Assembly: GCA_013150955.1 (NCBI GenBank)
Contig: JAADJD010000013.1
Coordinates: forward strand, 1-64,000
DNA length: 64,000 nt
Direction of reading: 5' to 3'
Source of the DNA: Calditrichota bacterium
GTDB lineage: Bacteria > Calditrichota > Calditrichia > RBG-13-44-9 > J042
Position numbers and translations under genes: made by a program. The notes beneath the pieces are model-generated. The model was not told the origin of the DNA. It did no database searches and saw only the letters and a list, made by a program, of their open reading frames with translations. Within the stretch, counting starts at the first letter, position 1; every line of letters begins with the position of its first letter. Shown piece after piece: positions 5,004 to 47,107 of this stretch.

Positions 5004-5906
5004 ATGAAGCGTTTGGTTGCTTTACCCGGCTGGCTGGGTTCCATTCTATTGATCATTGGATGGCTCTTCCCCCTCTCCTCACCTGCCGCACCGCCTTCCA
5101 GTGCCTGGTTGGGGGTATTTGTCCACACGATGGGTAGTGAGGCTCTGGATGACAGGGGACTGGATTTTGGGGTGCGGATCGGCTACGTTATTCCTGATAG
5201 TCCCGCCGATGAGGCTGGCTTGAAGAAAGGCGATATCATTGTTCGCGTGGATGATCGACCCATTTACTCCCCCAAACGATTGGCCTGGTTAATGGGTCAG
5301 TATGAACCCGGCGATGAAGTGACCCTGGAAATCTACCGCGACGGAAAAAAGAAGTTGGTGACGGTGCAGCTGGGGAAACGCCCGCGCCACCGTATTGGAT
5401 TCCTGAAGCGGACTTACCTGGGAGTGAAATTACAGACGCTGAATCCCGCCCTGCGGAAATTCTTTGGCGCACCAGAAGACCAGGGCGTCCTGATTGCAGA
5501 AGTTCATGAAGACAGTCCTGCAGCAGAAGCCGGCTTGCAGGTGGGAGATGTGATTTTAAAAATGGATCGCAAAATTATCCGCAGCATCCGGGATGTGTAT
5601 CGGGTGCTGGACTTTTTTGAGCCCGGTGATGAGATCACTGTGGAAATTCTACGGGACAAAAAGAAGCAAAAGATATCGGTCATACTGGGTGAACGCGAAG
5701 CTGAGGACGGGTGGTTTGAAGGTAGAAAGTTGTGGGGCCATTTCCCTGTTCCGGATCTGGAATATGAGCTGGGCATTTCACCGGAAGAGCTGGAAGAATT
5801 AAAAGAAAGATTGAAGGAGTTGCAGGAATTTTTCCGGGAATGGACTCCGGAAATCCGGGAACAGTTTCGGACATTGCGGGGCTGGTGGGAAGCGGGTTCC
5901 ATTTAA
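5004..5906 (+). CDS. Secreted protein with two PDZ domains and no protease domain
   Basis: The start at 5004 is chosen over in-frame upstream codons because GGAGGG lies 6 bases before it and it opens directly into a signal peptide (about residues 1-28). Two PDZ domains follow, about 34-125 and 137-230. Each has the DSPA-x-EAGL-x-x-GDI/V core and ends in a strand like VTVQLG or ISVILG. The tail (about 250-300) is charged, helical and rich in Glu, Lys and Arg. The 300-residue product lacks the trypsin-like domain of DegP/HtrA, so it is probably a periplasmic adaptor or substrate-presenting protein rather than a protease; that role is inference. It follows ftcD by 89 bases. Confidence 0.85.
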   Translation: MKRLVALPGWLGSILLIIGWLFPLSSPAAPPSSAWLGVFVHTMGSEALDDRGLDFGVRIGYVIPDSPADEAGLKKGDIIVRVDDRPIYSPKRLAWLMGQYEPGDEVTLEIYRDGKKKLVTVQLGKRPRHRIGFLKRTYLGVKLQTLNPALRKFFGAPEDQGVLIAEVHEDSPAAEAGLQVGDVILKMDRKIIRSIRDVYRVLDFFEPGDEITVEILRDKKKQKISVILGEREAEDGWFEGRKLWGHFPVPDLEYELGISPEELEELKERLKELQEFFREWTPEIREQFRTLRGWWEAGSI

Positions 5907-6125
5907 ACACGAATGATGCATGAAACTGCGGATCACGCGATTGAATTCGAAAAAAATCAACAAAATAGCGAATATATCCGGGAAAACATTTTCATCCGGA
6001 TAGAATCCAGTGCATTTTTTATTATTTCTATTGGTGTTCATTCGTGTCATTCGTAGGCGAATGCATCATCCGGGTTTAATTTGTGGGAATTCGTGCAATT
6101 CGCAGGATGATGCCAAATCCGGGAT
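5907..6125 (+). repeat. Dispersed fold-back repeat, copy B
   Basis: Begins with GATGCATGAAACTGCGGATC, carries the core CATTTTCATCCGGATAG, then GTGTTCATTCGTGTCATTCG and GCATCATCCGGGTTT. A partial second right end (ATTCGTGCAATTCGCAGGAT) follows. It sits between two convergent genes. Confidence 0.85.
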
Positions 6126-10218: not shown

Positions 10219-10379
10219 AAATTACCCCTTTTCGGCTTTTCGATTGTTTTTGTTAGTTGCCTGATCTTTATCCACCAACGAATTACCCACCAAATATAAG
10301 GCTTTTTCAAAAAATATAAATCCGGAAAATGAGACAGGCCAACCGCCCCCCAAAGCGATAGTTGAATTCGGGATTGATT
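10219..10379. other. Leader side of the divergent gap between the M64 peptidase and thioesterase genes
   Basis: AT-rich sequence that must contain the peptidase promoter. I see no gene or strong structure before the repeat at 10380. Confidence 0.35.
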
Positions 10380-10550
10380 TATCCCAGATAATGCATGAAA
10401 CCGCGCACCACGCGAATTCATCCCAACATATCCACAGAATAGTCAACAAACCGAGGAACCCATTTTCATCCAGAAAGAATCAAATGTACTAACTTTTTAT
10501 TCGAATTCATTCAGGCAATTCGTGGGAGAAATGTGAAATCCGGGTGTATT
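10380..10550 (+). repeat. Dispersed fold-back repeat, copy C
   Basis: Opens with ATCCCAGATAATGCATGAAA, includes CCATTTTCATCCAGAAAG and ends in GGCAATTCGTGGGAG and GAAATCCGGGTG. This copy lies between divergent genes, unlike most of the others. Confidence 0.85.
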
Positions 10551-11276: not shown

Positions 11277-11489
11277 ATAGTGCATTTAACCGCGAATCAC
11301 GCGAATGAAACCAAAACATATCCACAAAATCGCAAATAAATCCTGGAGTACATTGTTATCCAGATATCATCCAATGGATTTTGTTATTTTTGTTCGCGTT
11401 CATTCGTGTCATTCGTAGACTATTGCGTTTTCTGGGTTTAATTATTTGTGTTCATTCGTGACATTCGTGGTCTCATGCATCATCCGGGA
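11277..11489 (+). repeat. Dispersed fold-back repeat, copy D
   Basis: One of the best copies: ACCGCGAATCACGCGAATGA, then ATCCAGATATCATCCAATGG, CATTCGTGTCATTCGTAGAC, and a second right end closing in GCATCATCCGGGATTA. The last bases run into the alaS stop codon (minus strand, 11490-11492). It lies between convergent genes. Confidence 0.9.
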
Positions 11490-14150: not shown

Positions 14151-14387
14151 GCCGAAACACCTGATTTTTTGATTTTTATTATCGTATAAATTTAGAAGCA
14201 CACAACAGGAATTCCAATGAAATTTCTATTGTCATCCCTGGTCGGGTATTTTTGTCATTCCTCTGGACCAACCTGCCCCTGAATCTACCCGTTCCATTTG
14301 TCTAACACCTCTAAATGTCGATACGTTTTTTCGACTGAATTTCAGCGGTGGGCTTTTATCTGGGGGTTAAGCCCGGATTTAGACCCT
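14151..14387. other. Upstream region of alaS
   Basis: No gene is supported. This segment should hold the alaS promoter. There is no obvious T-box or attenuator hairpin. Confidence 0.35.
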
Positions 14388-14822
14388 GTTGATGTATGAA
14401 ACCGCGAACCACGCACATGACACCAAAACATAACTACAAAATCGCGAATAACCCCCGGAATCCATTTTCATCCGGATGTCATCAAATAGATTTTATTATC
14501 TTTACCCGTTGTGCTAATTCAGGATAAAGCAGGTGTTTAGAAAAACCGTTAAAACGGTTAATCATCATTCGGTTACGTTATTCATTTCTCCTGGCTGAAG
14601 CCAGGAGTTAATCGAAATTCTCATTCATTAACACCCAGATTTATCTGGGTGGACAACTTAATTCGTTTTAATTCGCGTCATTCGTAGGCCATTGCATAAT
14701 CTGGGTTCAACTGTTTTCCAGATCGTTTCATTATTCTTAACTCGCACAACGGAGATGTATTTTACTATTTCATTCGTGCTCATTCGGGTGATTCGTAGGA
14801 TAATACAAAATCCGGGTTAAGC
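14388..14822 (+). repeat. Dispersed fold-back repeat, copy E, interrupted by a three-hairpin element
   Basis: The left part (14388-14505) runs from GAAACCGCGAACCACGCACA to CATTTTCATCCGGATGTCAT. The expected right part (CGCGTCATTCGTAGGCCATTGC) appears only at about 14668, after a 150-base insertion. A further partial right end, from about 14770 to 14820, closes in ACAAAATCCGGGTTAAG. The split suggests that another element inserted into an existing copy. Confidence 0.75.
14544..14650. repeat. Three consecutive short hairpins
   Basis: Three perfect stem-loops occur in 107 bases: AACCGTT-AA-AACGGTT (14544-14559), CTCCTGGC-TGAA-GCCAGGAG (14588-14607) and ACCCAGAT-TT-ATCTGGGT (14633-14650). Triplets of this type recur between genes in many bacteria and are thought to be REP-like. 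No matching transposase is in the window. Confidence 0.75.
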
Positions 14823-14857
14823 GTCATATTACCGGATTTCGCGATCCCTTTGCATGG

Positions 14858-15676
14858 TTAGACTTTCGTTTTCACCGCAACCAGCAAGATCGCCGCAAGG
14901 TACCGTTCATACTGCTTGAACACCTTTCGCATGTTCAAGATTCGCTTTCTTGCGATGGAATGACGCACGACATTAAAAACGAAGCGGGAAAACCCCAAAA
15001 CCCCTTCATCCCGTATGACTCTATTGAGCCGGAGCAAATGCATGGGCGCCTTCACTTCTTCCACAACTTCGAAACCATTTTCTTCTAATAACTGTCGCCA
15101 TTCGGAGGGCGTCAGTGGACGGGCCCCCACATGAATAACATCGGACAGAGCCGTTCTAATTTCTTCTTTGATGTTTTCATGAAGATCATCGGGTAAAAGA
15201 CACAGCTCGTGCAAACCATACCTCCCGCCCGGTTCAAGAATCCGACAGGCTTCCTGCACAATTTTGACCTTTTTTTGCTGGGGTTGCATGGTTAACATTG
15301 CCTCGCAATACACAACTGTGGCTGATGAATCTGGTAAACCGGTTGCCTCAGCCCGACCAACCAGACACCTCTGATTTGGACCAATTAAGTATTTGCATAC
15401 GGAATCGGCAGCAACCGGGTCCCGTTCGATTGCCGTATAGCTTGCCGGATTGCATGCCAGAGCGAGTCGGGCAGTTGTACCCAGACCGGGAGCAAATTCA
15501 ACGACGTTATCAGTCGTCTGGATATCGATTGTTTCCAGCATTTTGCGGGTTAATTCCATCCCACCAGGTCGCAGCACCCGTTTACCCAGCCGGGCCAGGA
15601 GCCAATGACCGGGCATTTTATCGATCTCCAGAGTCTTCACAGAAGAAATCGGATTTACAAAAATAGTGGTTTTCAT
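14858..15676 (-). CDS. Class I SAM-dependent methyltransferase
   Basis: The 272-residue cytoplasmic protein has the class I Rossmann motifs: NVVEFAPGLGTTARLAL (motif I, about 57-73), TAIERDP (motif II), LPDSSATVVYCEAMLTMQ (motif IV) and CRILEPGGRYGLHELCLLP (motif V). This resembles the UbiE/small-molecule methyltransferase group. The C-terminal 60 residues are basic and helical. It lies downstream of, and in the same direction as, the TonB receptor gene (249-base gap), so a role in making or modifying a chelator or ligand is possible but unproven. GAGG stands 8 bases before the ATG. Confidence 0.82.
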   Translation of the reverse strand: MKTTIFVNPISSVKTLEIDKMPGHWLLARLGKRVLRPGGMELTRKMLETIDIQTTDNVVEFAPGLGTTARLALACNPASYTAIERDPVAADSVCKYLIGPNQRCLVGRAEATGLPDSSATVVYCEAMLTMQPQQKKVKIVQEACRILEPGGRYGLHELCLLPDDLHENIKEEIRTALSDVIHVGARPLTPSEWRQLLEENGFEVVEEVKAPMHLLRLNRVIRDEGVLGFSRFVFNVVRHSIARKRILNMRKVFKQYERYLAAILLVAVKTKV

Positions 15677-15842
15677 GCAGGCAGCCTCATTTTTAGAGCC
15701 GTGTTGTGATGCGATCCATCGCTCGCATCATTTCGGGTGAACCCAATTCCTTAAAAGCCCACACATCTCACGCATCGAATCAGCGAAAAATAAAGGATGT
15801 TTTCCCCAATCATATCCGCATGTTACGTATTGTTATGCTAAA

Positions 15843-15894
15843 TCCCCCCTCCTCCCTGTCTCCGCGAGCCGAGGCAGGCATGAGAAGAGGGGAT
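15843..15894. other. Nested hairpin between TonB receptor and methyltransferase genes
   Basis: CCCCTC (15846-15851) can pair with GAGGGG (15887-15892). An inner pairing CCTGTCTC with GAGGCAGG (one G-U) is possible. There is no T tract, so this is not a clear terminator. Nothing else is recognised in the 249-base gap. Confidence 0.35.
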
Positions 15895-15925
15895 GAAATC
15901 GATCCTCCACACAGGCAGAACCCAA

Positions 15926-18397
15926 TTAAAAATGCGTTTTAACCCCGGCGAGAAACGTGCGTGGCAGTCCTGGACGCAGGCCTGCCGGACGGCGAGCTGC
16001 CACGTAAATTGCATTGGTCAGATTCCGAACACTAAGAAATACCCTGTTTGAAGGGGTAATCGCGTATTCCGCCGAAAGGTCGAACACGGTGTGAGCATCC
16101 GTACTCCGGGACTCGACAAAATCTCCCTTACCGGCCACCGTGCGCATCCGGCCAACATACTTTGCGCTGATATGAATACGATATGTTGCCGTTTCCAGAC
16201 CCAGACTGGTGTAAAATTGATGTCGGGGCAAATACGGCAGTTCATCACCTTTTTCCACGGTGCCCCAGGGTTTGTAATCGCTTTTAAAACTGTTTTGAAA
16301 TGTTGCATCCGTGAACGTGTATGCCATGCGCAAAGGGATGGCGTAATCCGGCCAACCCATCTGGCTTCCGAAGTCGAAAGAGAAGGAAACCTCCAGCCCT
16401 TTCACTTCCGCCTCGCCTCCGTTGAATAAATCACCGGTTCCTTCACCGCCGGTGGCGAAAAGGTCGGCACCCAGCAGATTGGTGTAATCATTAAAAAACA
16501 CAACGCTTTGAAGGCTAAGCACATCCGTGTGATAGCGCAGACCGAATTCGTAATTCATACTCTCCTCGGGTTTGGTATTTTCTCTGGAACCCGGTGGCGC
16601 AAAGCCTTTGTGTATGCCCAAAAATGTGCTAAAGAATGGCGAGAATTTGTAATCCAGACCGATCCCGGGGATCCATACATCCACTTGATTCTTCTGGCGC
16701 TTTACGTTTACGCCGGTGCGTTGTGGATCGGATTTTCCGAAATCCTCCCGGGTGAGCGTGATGTTCTCGTACCGCAGGCCGGGTAGCGCCACCAGTTTGC
16801 CGAACGATAAATTGAACTGGACAAATCCCGCCCATACCCGGGCTCGAGAGATACGATTGCTTTCCGTACCCGGCGTGCCGGCCCGGGTCAGCCTCATCAC
16901 GCCGTTGTCCATCTTGTAATCATCCACCCACTGAAAACGATCCATTTCGTCTTCATGGTAGCGAAAGCCCAGTTCCGCCTCGTGGCGCTTCCCACCGATA
17001 TTGAATTGCATCCCAACAATCGATTGAATGCCCTGGGCATAATATTTCCTGTTGTTGGCCTTCACAACCAGGGCATTATCGTTGGCACTGGTCTGACCGG
17101 TGATGATGGCGTATTCGCCGGCATATTTGACCGGATCCTCTAATACTTTGCTGATTTTGATTTTCTCACCCGCTTCCGAGGCACGGACGGCGTCTAATTT
17201 GTACCAATTGCGTTTAAAATCATTCCGGTACAGTGTGGTGGTGATATCGATGGCAGAGGACAATTTTGCAAAATGACGGACTTGAAATTGAAGATGTTTA
17301 CTATTCATCACATCCTTCTGGGAAGCCGCATAACGACGAAGTGGATTTATTTTAAAATCGGCTTCGGTTAAACCCAGATAGGTTTCATTGGATACTTCAT
17401 CGGTTTGCTTCAATTTGAAAGTAACTTCCTGATACACCCTGGCGTTCAGGCTGGTATTCAGGCGAAGCTTCACCATGTAGTCCTTCTTGTCAAAACCGGT
17501 ATTCCCGCCGCCATCAAGTTCTTTGAATCCGTCCACCCTTGCCTGAAATGTTTCCACCAAAAAGCCAACATTCTTAAAACTATTCCCGGCGAATGCATGA
17601 ATGCGTCGTGCATTATCTTCGCCAGCCAGAAGTTTAATGCTCACTTTGAATTCCGAAGGAATGGAGGTGGAAATCAAATTCAATGCCCCACCGGTAGTGA
17701 AGGGGCCATATTTAATCTGGCTGGAACCCTTCCGCACTTCAATTCCTTCCATGCGTCCAATCGTGGGAAAGTAATAGGCCGCAGGCGCCGAATAAGGCGC
17801 GGGGGCAATCAATACGCCATCCTCCATCAAGGTGATTTTCTGACTGCGTTCCACCCCCGTGCCCCGCAATCCGATGTTGGGCCGCAATCCATAACCATCT
17901 TCTTCCTGAATATTGATGCCGGGTATTTCCCGCAGGGCGCGATTGATGTCGTTATATTCATGTTTTGACAGCTCCCGCAGGCCTAAATAGTGAGCTGAAC
18001 CGGGAATGTTAAATAGCCGCTCGGGGCTACCGATTAAATGCTCTCGTTCCACAACAATTTCATCGAGACCAATCGGTTCAACAGACAGGGAGAGGACGAG
18101 ATTTGTCACCTTTTTCGGAGACACGACAATTTTTCGGCTGACCTTCTGGTAACCAATGCGCTCAAATACAATCGTGTACTCTCCGGCAGGAACCTCTTCA
18201 ATGAGAAAATAACCATCCTCCGATGTGGCGGCACCAAAGCGTGTACCCAGCAGGGTAATGTTGACATCCTGTAACGGCTGGCCCGATTGGGCATCCGTGA
18301 TACGGCCTTCTATCTGGCCGGTTTGCGTGACGGCTCCCAATGGAAGCCCCAGGAAAAAAACCGTCATCAAAAAAAATGCCTTTAACAATGGTTTCAT
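15926..18397 (-). CDS. TonB-dependent outer-membrane receptor (FecA-like)
   Basis: Takes up a metal chelate or similar ligand through the outer membrane using TonB energy. The start at 18397 has GGAG 8-11 bases upstream and opens into a signal peptide (about 1-25). A carboxypeptidase-D-like (CarbopepD_reg) domain follows (about 28-110; GQIEGRITDAQSGQPLQDVNI in its first part), then a plug (about 140-250; NIGLRGTGVERSQKITLMEDGV region) and a 22-strand barrel ending in FLAGVKTHF with the usual terminal Phe. The plug motif RGTGVERS and the general layout resemble Fe(III)-dicitrate receptors. Its position beside an iron-type DtxR/Fur-like pair supports iron transport. The length, 823 residues, is normal. 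Confidence 0.92.
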   Translation of the reverse strand: MKPLLKAFFLMTVFFLGLPLGAVTQTGQIEGRITDAQSGQPLQDVNITLLGTRFGAATSEDGYFLIEEVPAGEYTIVFERIGYQKVSRKIVVSPKKVTNLVLSLSVEPIGLDEIVVEREHLIGSPERLFNIPGSAHYLGLRELSKHEYNDINRALREIPGINIQEEDGYGLRPNIGLRGTGVERSQKITLMEDGVLIAPAPYSAPAAYYFPTIGRMEGIEVRKGSSQIKYGPFTTGGALNLISTSIPSEFKVSIKLLAGEDNARRIHAFAGNSFKNVGFLVETFQARVDGFKELDGGGNTGFDKKDYMVKLRLNTSLNARVYQEVTFKLKQTDEVSNETYLGLTEADFKINPLRRYAASQKDVMNSKHLQFQVRHFAKLSSAIDITTTLYRNDFKRNWYKLDAVRASEAGEKIKISKVLEDPVKYAGEYAIITGQTSANDNALVVKANNRKYYAQGIQSIVGMQFNIGGKRHEAELGFRYHEDEMDRFQWVDDYKMDNGVMRLTRAGTPGTESNRISRARVWAGFVQFNLSFGKLVALPGLRYENITLTREDFGKSDPQRTGVNVKRQKNQVDVWIPGIGLDYKFSPFFSTFLGIHKGFAPPGSRENTKPEESMNYEFGLRYHTDVLSLQSVVFFNDYTNLLGADLFATGGEGTGDLFNGGEAEVKGLEVSFSFDFGSQMGWPDYAIPLRMAYTFTDATFQNSFKSDYKPWGTVEKGDELPYLPRHQFYTSLGLETATYRIHISAKYVGRMRTVAGKGDFVESRSTDAHTVFDLSAEYAITPSNRVFLSVRNLTNAIYVAARRPAGLRPGLPRTFLAGVKTHF

Positions 18398-18621
18398 ACA
18401 AATGTTCTCCTTTTGGGTTAACGTTTTAGTCAACTATCTGGTGATTCGTGAGTGTATAAACCCCAACAAAGGAGGTTTTCTTTTTCGTGTTTTCATCGCA
18501 TCAGATTTTGCACCCTTTTGTTCAAATCTTTTGAGCTCCCTTTTTTGCATAGATGGATCATCCCAATATTTTCCATGCGCTATTTTGATTTCCTCTGTTC
18601 CTTTTCCTATATTTCTGGATA

Positions 18622-18648
18622 GAAAAAGGCCAGGGCAGTTTAATGCCC
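18622..18648 (-). terminator. Minus-strand terminator between regulator module and TonB receptor
   Basis: On the minus strand GGGCA-TTAAAC-TGCCC is followed by TGGCC and five Ts. It would stop transcripts from the DtxR/Fur-like unit before they reach the receptor gene. Confidence 0.5.
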
Positions 18649-18650
18649 CC

Positions 18651-18706
18651 CATCTCAATGCACGTCACAATGCCGCTGGTGCATTGAGATGACGATGCGC
18701 CTTTTT
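18651..18706 (+). terminator. Long inverted repeat with T run
   Basis: A 12-bp perfect inverted repeat, CATCTCAATGCA (18651-18662) and TGCATTGAGATG (18680-18691), is followed by ACGATGCGCC and TTTTT. It is terminator-like on the plus strand but the T run is displaced by ten bases. Confidence 0.45.
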
Positions 18707-18717
18707 CTGATGTTCAG

Positions 18718-18771
18718 GAGTGAGTCCGTTGAGTGCCTTGGCCAGGTACAGGGACTCACTCTTTTTTTTTT
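18718..18771 (+). terminator. Strong plus-strand terminator with no gene upstream
   Basis: A perfect 10-bp stem GAGTGAGTCC (18718-18727) / GGACTCACTC (18752-18761) runs straight into ten Ts (18762-18771). No plus-strand gene lies upstream back to the divergent TonB receptor start, which suggests an unannotated plus-strand transcript. Confidence 0.75.
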
Positions 18772-18976
18772 ACACGTCCTGCGACCGACTTACCGGCGTT
18801 TCATGCCTGATATGGCATTCGGTTTACCTCCATCATGAATCCATCGGATCGATCACCCGTGCCGGTTCAAAGATTTTTAAAAACAAAACACGCAAGTCAT
18901 AGAAAACTTCCGCCGGAAAAGCCATCACGGGTAACGTTTTTTGTGATCTCGCCCTTTTCTGAAAAGTCATCCAACG

Positions 18977-19189
18977 TTACCGGGACTGTTCCTGCTTCCG
19001 ACAATGATTACAAATGCCGAACATTTGAATCGTTTCTTCATGGGGTTCAAAATCCGTCATTTTAAAAATTTCCCGAAATGTTAACCCCAGGGTCTGATGA
19101 TTGATCTCAATAACCGTTGTGCATTTGGTACAGATAAGATTGAGCGTTGTTTCCGGGCCAATCGCTTGAGTGTCAGTATCGTATTGCAT
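18977..19189 (-). CDS. Free-standing Fur-family C-terminal (zinc/dimerisation) domain
   Basis: A 70-residue protein that matches only the second half of Fur/PerR/Zur regulators: LNLICTKCTTVIEIN, a central helix, FEPHEETIQMFGICNHCRK. Both structural-zinc pairs are kept (Cys20/Cys23 and Cys60/Cys63). The winged-helix DNA-binding half is absent, and the His-rich segment that normally precedes LIC in Fur reads TTLN, so the regulatory metal site is altered. GGAG lies seven bases before the ATG, and no N-terminal remnant is found upstream in any frame, which favours a real small gene over a frameshift. It starts 40 bases after the DtxR-type gene. It could modulate that repressor by binding to it, or act as a zinc-binding remnant. 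Confidence 0.75.
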   Translation of the reverse strand: MQYDTDTQAIGPETTLNLICTKCTTVIEINHQTLGLTFREIFKMTDFEPHEETIQMFGICNHCRKQEQSR

Positions 19190-19229
19190 GAAATAGCTCC
19201 ATCCGATTCAAGGAATTCTGGAATGATTT

Positions 19230-19760
19230 TTATTTGTGCTCTTCAGAATGCAACAGGCATTCGGTATCACAAACGCCGCATTCACCAGTATGCCCCTGGC
19301 ACACATTCTCATAGCTTCTGTAGGCATCTAAAAAGGCCCTGGCTGTCGAATCGCTTGAAAACAAAAATTTTAGAAAACTCAGGAGCTTCTTACCGGTCTC
19401 TTCGCTGATTAAATGTTCCACCTTACAGGCATCTATTTCTGCCTGATCCGGTTGGACCTGGAGAACATCCTGCAGGAACTTGATCAGAATTTTACGAGTG
19501 GATTGGATAGCATGGCTCAGGCGATCCCCCTTTTCGGTAAGAAAAAGGAACTTGTTTTCGTCCTCCATCACGTATCCTTTTTCCTTTAAAGCCTTTAAGG
19601 TGATGGAAGCGCTGCCTCGGGTGATACCCAGCGTACGCGCCACATCACTCACACGCGCATATCCCCGATCAGACAACAGTTGCGCAATAGCCATGAGATG
19701 GTGGGCTGCACTGTGGGTAATCTCATTCTGATCAAACGCTTTCCAGGTTGTTATATCCAT
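19230..19760 (-). CDS. DtxR-family metal-dependent repressor with Cys-rich tail
   Basis: The start at 19760 (MDITTWKAF) has GGGA upstream; longer in-frame starts would include the operator. The 176-residue protein has an N-terminal winged helix (about 15-72; ARVSDVARTLGITRGSASITLKALKEKGYV), then the dimerisation/metal domain with DACKVEHLIS (Cys112, Glu115, His116). The Cys at that place is typical of the iron-type DtxR/IdeR rather than MntR. By eye the ancillary-site residues of DtxR (His79, Glu83, His98) are replaced by Arg, Ile and Glu. The tail holds Cys154, Cys161, Cys164 and Cys168, an extra possible metal or thiol site. It probably represses its own operon and metal uptake genes. Confidence 0.85.
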   Translation of the reverse strand: MDITTWKAFDQNEITHSAAHHLMAIAQLLSDRGYARVSDVARTLGITRGSASITLKALKEKGYVMEDENKFLFLTEKGDRLSHAIQSTRKILIKFLQDVLQVQPDQAEIDACKVEHLISEETGKKLLSFLKFLFSSDSTARAFLDAYRSYENVCQGHTGECGVCDTECLLHSEEHK

Positions 19761-19795
19761 TCCATGTCCCTTTACTTTGTTTTGCATATATAAAC

Positions 19796-19849
19796 ACTGT
19801 TTTAATATTAAAACAGTTGAATGATATGCATGGCACCTCAAAAAGTCAA
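19796..19849 (-). promoter_or_regulatory. DtxR-gene promoter with overlapping 22-bp palindromic operator
   Basis: On the minus strand TTGACT (19844-19849), a 17-base spacer and TATCAT (19821-19826) form a good sigma-70-type promoter. A perfect 22-bp palindrome follows at 19796-19817, made of the half-site ACTGTTTTAAT and its exact complement. It covers the expected start of transcription near 19813, the position of an autorepressor site. Confidence 0.75.
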
Positions 19850-20184
19850 TGGGTTACAGTAAATTCAAGGCTTTATCAAACAGGAATTCTTATCCTTTAA
19901 CTTCGACTTTGTGTCTCAAATAATTTTTAAGTGCGAGACGTTCTGTGGGAAACCTGAAGGGGGTAATTATCCGCTTATACGATGCGGTTCAAATCACAAC
20001 CTTGTAAAAATTTTCAACGGACCGCAACCTCTCAATACGGTATTTTACAATTTGCTCGATCGGGCAATGCCTGTCTATTCGTGAATTATCACATGCCCGC
20101 AGGACCCATGCGTGTCCAATCCATTCATGCCCTAAGCCTCCCAGGGCATACTCTTTGCTTCATCACCCGGATATTATTGAATTA
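19850..20184. other. Gap upstream of the regulator promoter
   Basis: No gene is supported. The region is AT-rich with no repeat copy or strong hairpin that I can identify. Confidence 0.3.
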
Positions 20185-20397
20185 ATCCCAAATGATGCAT
20201 GAAACCGCAAAATAAACCTAAATTATGCTTTTGACCACGAATTACACGAATAAACGCAAATAAAAACAAATTTTTAGAAGACGATATTATTGTTGAAAAA
20301 ACATGCCGGTTCTTAAACAAATAATTTTACTTGTATCAGTTGATAATAATCGTTTTAAACCATGAATGAACCGGTCAATAATGCACAATCCGGGTTT
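20185..20397. repeat. Dispersed fold-back repeat, degenerate copy F
   Basis: The left end is clear (AATGATGCATGAAACCGC), as is a right end (CAATAATGCACAATCCGGGTT). The core is replaced by unrelated AT-rich sequence, with an extra ACCACGAATTACACGAATAA block inside. Orientation cannot be told. Confidence 0.55.
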
Positions 20398-20558
20398 ATC
20401 CCAGATAATGCATTAAACTGCGAATCACGCAAATGATACCAAAATATTTCTACAAAATCGTAAATATACCCCGAAACAAATTTTCATCCAGATCCTGATC
20501 TAATGTATTTGATTATTGTGTTCATTCGTGTCATTCGGGGTCTAACGCATCATTCCAC
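20398..20558 (+). repeat. Dispersed fold-back repeat, copy G
   Basis: Directly abuts copy F. CCCAGATAATGCATTAAACT, the core AATTTTCATCCAGATCCTGA, then GTGTTCATTCGTGTCATTCG and GCATCATTCC. It lies downstream of the dipeptidase gene's 3' end. Confidence 0.85.
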
Positions 20559-20669
20559 TCAATCAGAATCTTTGTATTCCCGTCCCGGCCATGGAAACCG
20601 TCCGTCGAATCGGGTTAGCGCCTTCCGATCCGAATTTTATAAAAACCCCTTTTCGGTAATCTTCAGAGG

Positions 20670-21884
20670 TCATCGCAGGGAGCGGGCGTATTCTTCATTG
20701 GCTTTCAGTACCCGTAACAGGTTACCGCCCAGAATTTTCCGGACATCTTCTTCCGAAAAGCCGCGTTTCAACAGCATGTAGGTGATGTAAGGCAGTTTGC
20801 TCACATCTTCCATCCCAATGGGCAGGGAGGATACGCCATCGAAATCGCTTCCCAGCCCCACATGATCCACGCCGGCAAATTGAACCACATGTTCAATATG
20901 ATCCACGATGACCGAAGCATCGGGTACGGGAAGATCATATTGCCGGAAAAGCTCTCCGTAGGCCTGCCAGAAGCCAAAGCGATCGCCTTCATACTTCTGG
21001 CGCAACACCTTTACCTGGGGTTCCAGCTCTTTTTTCACCCGCTCATATGCTTCTTTGTACTCCTGGCTCAAAAATCCCGAATAGAAATTAATGTGAATCA
21101 CCCCACCGTTCTGTTTGACCTTTCGAATGAGCGCATCGGGCAGATTCCGGGGCACATCGCACAACGCCCGGCAGGAAGAATGGGAGGCGATGACTGGCGT
21201 TCGGGAAAGTTCCAGCACCTGGGCAATGGCCGCATCGGACAGGTGAGAAATATCAATCAGCATGCCCAGCCGATTCATCTCCTGCACCACCTGGCGCCCG
21301 AAGTCACTCAGCCCATTCCAGCGGGGCTCATCGGTACTGGAATCGCTAATATCGTTAGCGGAGGAATGCGTCAGGGTTATGTACCGCACCCCCAGACGAT
21401 AAAAATTGCGCAACAGGGCCAGACTGTGCTCAATTGGGCCGCCATTTTCCATCCCCATCAGGGCGGCAATCTTTCCCTCCCGATGCAAACGCAAAATATC
21501 CTCACTGGAATATGCCATGGCAATTTTATCGGGATTGGCCTCAACTGCCCGGTATACGGCGTCAATCAATTCCAGGGCGTACTTTGCGGGATGTAAACTG
21601 TCCATTCGATTGGGAACATATATGGAAAAAAACTGGGCGTCCAGACCCCCTTCAAAAGCACGGGGCAGGTCAAAATGACCCTCGTCGTGGCGTTTGCCCA
21701 TGTCAAAATTATCGTGAAATAACTTCATGGTCACATCGCAATGGGTATCGATCACAATGGCTTCCCGGTGGAGCTTCATGGCCTTCTGCCACAATTCAGG
21801 ATCCACATTTTCTGGCACATCCCCCGCGAATACACTCCCGAGAACCCAGACCAGAATGGATAACCCAACAACAATTACCCTCAT
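20670..21884 (-). CDS. Secreted membrane dipeptidase (peptidase family M19)
   Basis: Zinc dipeptidase of the renal dipeptidase family; cleaves dipeptides, often with low stereospecificity. The ATG at 21884 has GGAGG seven bases upstream; the TTG two codons earlier is rejected. Residues 1-20 are a signal peptide. The metal-binding pattern is complete: IDTHCD (about 46-50), MENGG, DISHLS, IASHSS and GLGSDFDG. The length, 404 residues, is typical. It is probably periplasmic or surface-exposed and serves peptide scavenging. Monocistronic. Confidence 0.93.
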   Translation of the reverse strand: MRVIVVGLSILVWVLGSVFAGDVPENVDPELWQKAMKLHREAIVIDTHCDVTMKLFHDNFDMGKRHDEGHFDLPRAFEGGLDAQFFSIYVPNRMDSLHPAKYALELIDAVYRAVEANPDKIAMAYSSEDILRLHREGKIAALMGMENGGPIEHSLALLRNFYRLGVRYITLTHSSANDISDSSTDEPRWNGLSDFGRQVVQEMNRLGMLIDISHLSDAAIAQVLELSRTPVIASHSSCRALCDVPRNLPDALIRKVKQNGGVIHINFYSGFLSQEYKEAYERVKKELEPQVKVLRQKYEGDRFGFWQAYGELFRQYDLPVPDASVIVDHIEHVVQFAGVDHVGLGSDFDGVSSLPIGMEDVSKLPYITYMLLKRGFSEEDVRKILGGNLLRVLKANEEYARSLR

Positions 21885-23910: not shown

Positions 23911-24082
23911 ACCCAAATCATGCGATAAACCGCGAATCGCACGAATGAAACCAAAAAATGTTAACAAAATCGCGAATAATAGCCGGAACACATTTTTATC
24001 CAGACCTCGTCCAATGGATTTTACTATTTTTTATTCGTGTTAATTCGTGTCATTCGTGGTCCTAAGCATCATCCGGGTTAAA
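23911..24082 (+). repeat. Dispersed fold-back repeat, copy H
   Basis: ACCCAAATCATGCGATAAAC, GAATCGCACGAATGAAACC, core CATTTTTATCCAGACCTCGT, ATTCGTGTCATTCGTGGTCC, AGCATCATCCGGGTTAAA. It lies after the glycosyltransferase gene. Confidence 0.9.
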
Positions 24083-34892: not shown

Positions 34893-35036
34893 CGCCTACG
34901 AATTACACGAATTCACTCGAATAAAATCATTAAACCGCGAATTACACGAATGAAACCCAAAAATATCTACAAAACCACGAATAAATCCTGGAACACATTT
35001 TTATCCAGACATCACCAGATGGATTTTATTATCCCA
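34893..35036 (+). repeat. Dispersed fold-back repeat, right-truncated copy I1
   Basis: TTAAACCGCGAATTACACGA, core CATTTTTATCCAGACATCAC and ATGGATTTTATTATCCC. The right half is replaced by the start of the next copy. Confidence 0.85.
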
Positions 35037-46837: not shown

Positions 46838-47107
46838 TACCACGAATGACACGAATTTACACAAACGAAAATAATAAACCCAAATAATGCGTTAAACCGC
46901 GAATCAAGCGAATGAAATCAAAAAATAAACACAAAATCGCGAAAAAACCTAAAACCCATTTTCATCCAGATCTCATCCAATGGATTTTACTATTTTTATT
47001 TGTGTTAATTCGTGTAATTCGTGGTCTAAAGCATAATTTGGGATCAATTATTTGTTGATATTTTCGGATTCATTCGCGTGATTCGGGGTTGGAATGCAAT
47101 ATCGGGG
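46838..47107 (+). repeat. Dispersed fold-back repeat, copy J with duplicated ends
   Basis: An extra left fragment (CCACGAATGACACGAATTTA) precedes AATGCGTTAAACCGCGAATC, core CATTTTCATCCAGATCTCAT, AATTCGTGTAATTCGTGGTC and AAAGCATAATTTGGGATC. Another right end follows (CGCGTGATTCGGGGTTGGAA). It abuts the fapA stop codon. Confidence 0.88.

Follow-up and report, generated by a model that had tools for sequence, protein, structure and literature searches.

Repressors of the DtxR and IdeR type combine a winged-helix domain with a dimerisation domain, and carry a primary metal site of the form Cys-x2-Glu-His (C102, E105 and H106 in DtxR), an ancillary site (H79, E83 and H98) and a C-terminal SH3-like domain. 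The Fe(II) selectivity of IdeR has been ascribed to Met10 and Cys102 (PMC10317159). The MntR manganese regulators are of two-domain size, use the ligands D8, E11, H77 and E99, and have no cysteine tail. As for Fur, the C-terminal domain of the E. coli protein, Fur(83-148), binds [2Fe-2S] when produced alone (reviewed in PMC12683245), and occupancy of its site 3 has been reported to be necessary and sufficient for Fur dimerisation (PMC12538065); both reports come from one laboratory.

The window analysed here, a stretch of 64,000 nucleotides from a Calditrichota bacterium, brings these families together, with a DtxR-family gene followed, 40 nt past its stop codon, by a small gene that corresponds to the C-terminal half of Fur. 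The features of the locus are as follows.

14226..20682, no strand assigned: inserted cassette of 6.4 kb (dtxR, fur fragment, TonB receptor, methyltransferase), from genome comparison
19796..19817, no strand assigned: perfect 22-bp palindrome ACTGTTTTAATATTAAAACAGT, conserved upstream of dtxR relatives
19798-19815: candidate operator of the subfamily, TGTTTTA-N4-TAAAACA, inside the palindrome, recurring upstream of relatives
19230..19760, minus strand: dtxR, DtxR/MntR-type repressor of the Cys-tail subfamily, 176 aa, from profile, alignment and structure matches
19197..19200, minus strand: ribosome-binding site GGAG, 7 nt before the ATG of the small gene, by direct reading
18977..19189, minus strand: small gene, stand-alone Fur C-terminal domain, 70 aa, from profile, alignment and fold matches
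15926..18394, minus strand: TonB-dependent receptor of siderophore/FecA type with a CarboxypepD_reg N-terminal domain, downstream of the small gene, from profile matches
14858..15676, minus strand: SAM-dependent methyltransferase (DVU_1556-like), last gene of the cassette, from profile matches

The Cys-tail DtxR repressor and its relatives

The product of 19230-19760 is a DtxR-family repressor. In Pfam, it passes the curated cut-offs for both Fe_dep_repress (7.8e-06, 26.5 bits, cut-off 26) and Fe_dep_repr_C (3e-11, 43.6 bits, cut-off 27), and its primary metal site, C112, E115 and H116, has the iron-type Cys-x2-Glu-His form, as the initial annotation had read it. The loss of the DtxR ancillary residues and the Cys-rich tail described there are likewise present: in an ungapped alignment H79/E83/H98 are replaced by R89/I93/E108, and all four tail cysteines (C154, C161, C164 and C168) are in place. 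Unlike DtxR and IdeR, the protein ends with this tail at residue 176 and has no SH3-like domain, so that both marks of the DtxR/IdeR iron-repressor subtype, the ancillary site and the C-terminal SH3-like domain, are missing; in addition, H20 replaces Met10, and the candidate operator is TGTTTTA-N4-TAAAACA. In two-domain size the repressor resembles MntR, which is its top PDB match and the best fold match of its AlphaFold model (pLDDT 90.8; TM 0.86 to 1on2), but the MntR ligands D8, E11, H77 and E99 correspond to H20, M23, R89 and C112, and the Cys tail has no counterpart in MntR.

Relatives of dtxR were found in 104 other loci, spread over Calditrichota, KSB1, Latescibacterota, Gemmatimonadota, Kiritimatiellota, Planctomycetota and others. 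W6, H16, H20, C112, E115 and H116 are invariant among the aligned relatives, none of them has the DtxR ancillary ligands, the position of DtxR H79 is almost always an Arg (R89 here), and the Cys tail is recognised by its pattern in 88 of the 104. A role of the subfamily in Fe(II) sensing is likely, as judged from gene neighbourhood, because feoB lies in the examined flank at 37 of the 104 loci. The subfamily also retains the cysteine comparable to IdeR Cys102, and alignment mapping places H20 at the Met10 position. No description of this subfamily was found in the literature searched, which reached few subscription papers.

In two KSB1-type genomes, small proteins of 55 and 64 aa with a CxxC...CxxH pattern are encoded right after a subfamily dtxR and upstream of feoA/feoB (L060:3079-3246 and L065:4526-4720, respectively); they are not of the same family as the Fur fragment.

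A recurrent candidate operator upstream of dtxR

The candidate operator lies 52 nt upstream of dtxR. Among 106 dtxR upstream regions, which include the window's own and come in part from near-identical genomes, TGTTTTA-N4-TAAAACA is present with at most one mismatch in 19 (none in 7 and one in 12), against 0.1 expected from shuffles, and in the relatives it sits 34-68 nt upstream of the gene. This recurrence supports autoregulation of dtxR, and the subfamily would be expected to bind the sequence; the small gene would belong to the same operon and be co-transcribed with dtxR. Elsewhere in the genome, a single site with at most one mismatch was found (C40:122864-122881, or L171:10865-10882; one mismatch). 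Sites with two mismatches are rarer genome-wide than those of a reversed-pattern control (23 versus 52 per strand), and therefore only the dtxR site and the C40:122864 site merit attention. A 382-aa frame with no assigned role follows the latter at a distance of ~260 nt. The feoB of the genome (C64) stands beside another DtxR-like gene and lacks a good operator site.

A classical Fur box was sought and not found, promoter-like matches were no more frequent than by chance, and no element reached its gathering score in the Rfam scan. The nuoG cis-regulatory RNA family is matched weakly at 14583-14620 of the window, minus strand (28.2 bits, gathering score 33), probably by chance or in connection with a repeat.

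A stand-alone C-terminal domain of Fur

The reading of the 70-residue gene as the zinc/dimerisation half of Fur only, with both CxxC pairs and no DNA-binding half, is confirmed by C-terminal matches. The NCBIfam model of Bacillales Fur aligns residues 16-68 with model positions 96-148 of 149 (1.6e-06), and Pfam FUR is matched at positions 79-120 of 121 only (0.006, 17.2 bits), below the cut-off of 23.1 that marks a full-length Fur. With the AlphaFold model (pLDDT 80; residues 1-10 below 50 and predicted to be disordered) as the query, the top PDB matches in Foldseek are Fur, Zur and PerR only. The N-terminal winged-helix DNA-binding domain is missing, since the frame begins at the domain boundary, where QYDTDT aligns with RYDADT of native Furs, and the gap to dtxR measures only 40 nt.

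In an alignment of 32 Fur C-terminal domains, four cysteines are invariant, and all of them are kept in the small protein as C20, C23, C60 and C63 (site 3), as is Gly58; the CxxC...CxxC site of the dimerisation domain is retained, as is its predicted fold. By contrast, the two His columns conserved in at least 90% of these domains are occupied by T15 and N17. When the E. coli site numbering (PMC12538065) is mapped by position from the invariant cysteines, site 1 (H87, D89, E108 and H125) becomes T14, L16, G35 and E52, and site 2 has lost H88 and H90 (T15 and N17) along with the DNA-binding half. Judged from these residues, the small protein could sense metal through the four-cysteine site 3 only. 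The E. coli Fur(83-148) construct is comparable in being the same domain alone, with site 3 and the C-terminal fold predicted here as Fur/Zur, whereas the small protein is a natural gene product, lacks both site 1 and site 2 and is under ~31% identical to the aligned Furs.

The small gene is coding-like, its coding score of +0.02 per codon exceeding the 99th percentile of shifted frames (-0.14); it falls below the 1st percentile of native gene pieces (+0.09), as expected for foreign DNA.

Insertion of the cassette and horizontal origin of dtxR

In a genome of the same genus (G001), alaS adjoins the M19 peptidase gene without the cassette, and GC within the cassette is 0.40-0.51 compared with about 0.49-0.56 in adjacent coding DNA. 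In the tree, dtxR groups with the KSB1 isolate CS3-K085 (L059, 81% identity; support 100/98) and is placed outside the Calditrichota clade (clade support 100/98). An iron-uptake cassette has been acquired, with a dtxR of horizontal origin. DNA similarity to L059 covers 19229-19815, beginning at the operator and ending with the dtxR stop codon; the small gene lies outside it.

No target-site duplication was recognised at the cassette ends, where the long repeat present on both sides belongs to a dispersed family. This intergenic repeat, about 100-160 nt long and 70-80% identical between copies, occupies many spacers of the genome, occurs also in L001, L162, L165 and L171-L173, and the same-genus region L190 gave no copy. 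Its copies in the window, which flank the cassette on both sides, are the following.

1203-1315, 5901-6001, 10376-10485, 11288-11391 and 14373-14499: dispersed repeat
20390-20516, 23927-24031, 34929-35033 and 46894-47011: dispersed repeat

Distribution of the small gene

The pair is not conserved in related genomes, the small gene being private and absent from the relatives searched. The search covered the phylum (40 genomes), the KSB1-type phylum (82) and broad relatives (146 and 385); among the ~495 distinct genomes (G000-G494) no other stand-alone Fur C-terminal domain was found, and all other genome matches are full-length Furs whose open frames are no shorter than 134 aa. No orthologue came from plasmids, phages or viral contigs, no stand-alone Fur C-terminal gene from the 80 GTDB loci around dtxR relatives, and none of the 104 relatives, L059 included, has the fragment beside dtxR. 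L059, the nearest, has no fur either. No parent Fur above ~37% identity was found, and the small protein has the longest branch in the Fur C-terminal tree (7.69 versus a median of 0.66, lengths being rough). Because frame and cysteines persist despite this branch, long neutral decay is unlikely; a divergent Fur, absent from the sample, may have been truncated recently. In the literature searched, which reached few subscription papers, we found neither a gene for the Fur C-terminal domain alone nor a system with the DtxR/Fur split; the initial annotation likewise knew of no such system.

Relatives with a full-length Fur at this locus, which would mark the small gene as a remnant, exist in part. 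A complete Fur gene lies 15 nt after dtxR in G002 of the same family (L026:916-1407) and 34 nt after it in G004 of the same order (L012:944-1450), but the dtxR concerned is of a different clade and at a different locus, and in G002 it no longer has the Cys tail. The pairing of the two families therefore recurs, with a complete Fur and another dtxR clade. In these loci as in the window, a subfamily dtxR is immediately followed by a Fur-family gene; the Furs of G002 and G004, however, have the DNA-binding half and the HxH residues, and stand in another genome context. Direct descent from the G002/G004 pair was considered as the simple explanation and rejected: in the tree, the window's dtxR falls with KSB1 and outside the Calditrichota clade, and the DNA similarity to L059 stops at the dtxR stop codon.

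Possible functions of the pair

Tentatively, and by a narrow margin, we favour over a remnant the reading that the cell has acquired a DtxR-controlled iron cassette whose second gene is a Fur dimerisation module titrating the cell's Furs. When Fe(II) is ample, DtxR would bind metal via C112/E115/H116 (and H20), and the metal-bound repressor would sit on TGTTTTAATATTAAAACA and repress its own operon. When iron is low, the operon would be derepressed and the small protein made. This protein may fold about a Zn or [2Fe-2S] centre bound by its four cysteines; being without a DNA-binding half, it may pair with a second copy of itself or with a full-length Fur, of which the genome encodes three (C66, C6 and C38), available as targets. 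Pairing with a Fur would weaken Fur repression. Here we infer Fe(II) as the effector, the pairing and the physiological effect. The perfect operator, the gene with its ribosome-binding site 40 nt downstream of dtxR, the predicted Fur/Zur fold, the cysteines retained despite the longest branch, the invariant Cys and His ligands of the repressor, the feoB neighbours of its relatives, the presence of three full-length Furs and the reports on E. coli Fur(83-148) and on site 3 all argue for this reading, whereas the absence of an orthologue in any search, the low identity to the aligned Furs, a pairing with native Furs that is itself a prediction, the low codon score and the disordered residues 1-10 argue against it. 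That the product is a natural microprotein, a DtxR-controlled site-3 domain which binds Zn or [2Fe-2S] and inactivates Fur via DNA-binding-deficient heterodimers, thereby linking both circuits, seems doubtful.

It is almost as likely that the small gene is a recent and functionless leftover of a full-length fur, either from a dtxR-fur operon or joined to dtxR at cassette assembly. The loss of Fur sites 1 and 2, the start at the Fur domain boundary, the lack of an orthologue in ~495 genomes and the complete Fur after dtxR in G002 and G004 speak for such a remnant; yet the adjoining dtxR is of the KSB1 type and not the one beside fur in those genomes, its nearest relative L059 has neither fur nor fragment, a parent Fur above ~37% identity was not found, and the four cysteines, Gly58, the frame, the ribosome-binding site and the predicted fold have all been retained.

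A small zinc or Fe-S protein with its own role, such as a metal buffer or an accessory of the TonB receptor, unrelated to Fur/DtxR regulation, is unlikely: although small metal-binding neighbours of dtxR recur, as in L060 and L065, these are of a different family, and the fold and sequence of the present protein match Fur/Zur specifically. The mixed DtxR-Fur sensor of the initial annotation, in which the small protein would bind DtxR, whose site is altered, and provide it with metal sensing or control of dimerisation, is quite improbable despite the adjacency of the genes in one presumably autoregulated operon and the four clustered cysteines in each protein, because the altered site and, mostly, the tail are shared by the 104 relatives without the small gene and are thus traits of the subfamily rather than compensation for a partner, DtxR carries its own dimerisation domain, and the small protein is without Fur sites 1 and 2.

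Regardless of the small gene, the analysis outlines a widespread Cys-tail DtxR subfamily that is tied to feoAB and has a defined candidate operator. If the small gene is functional, it would be the natural counterpart of the artificial construct used to argue for [2Fe-2S] iron sensing by Fur, it could serve to test whether dimerisation and the response to iron need no more than site 3 in a protein that has neither site 1 nor site 2, and it would represent a rare case in bacteria of a regulator under the control of its own dimerisation domain in isolated form.
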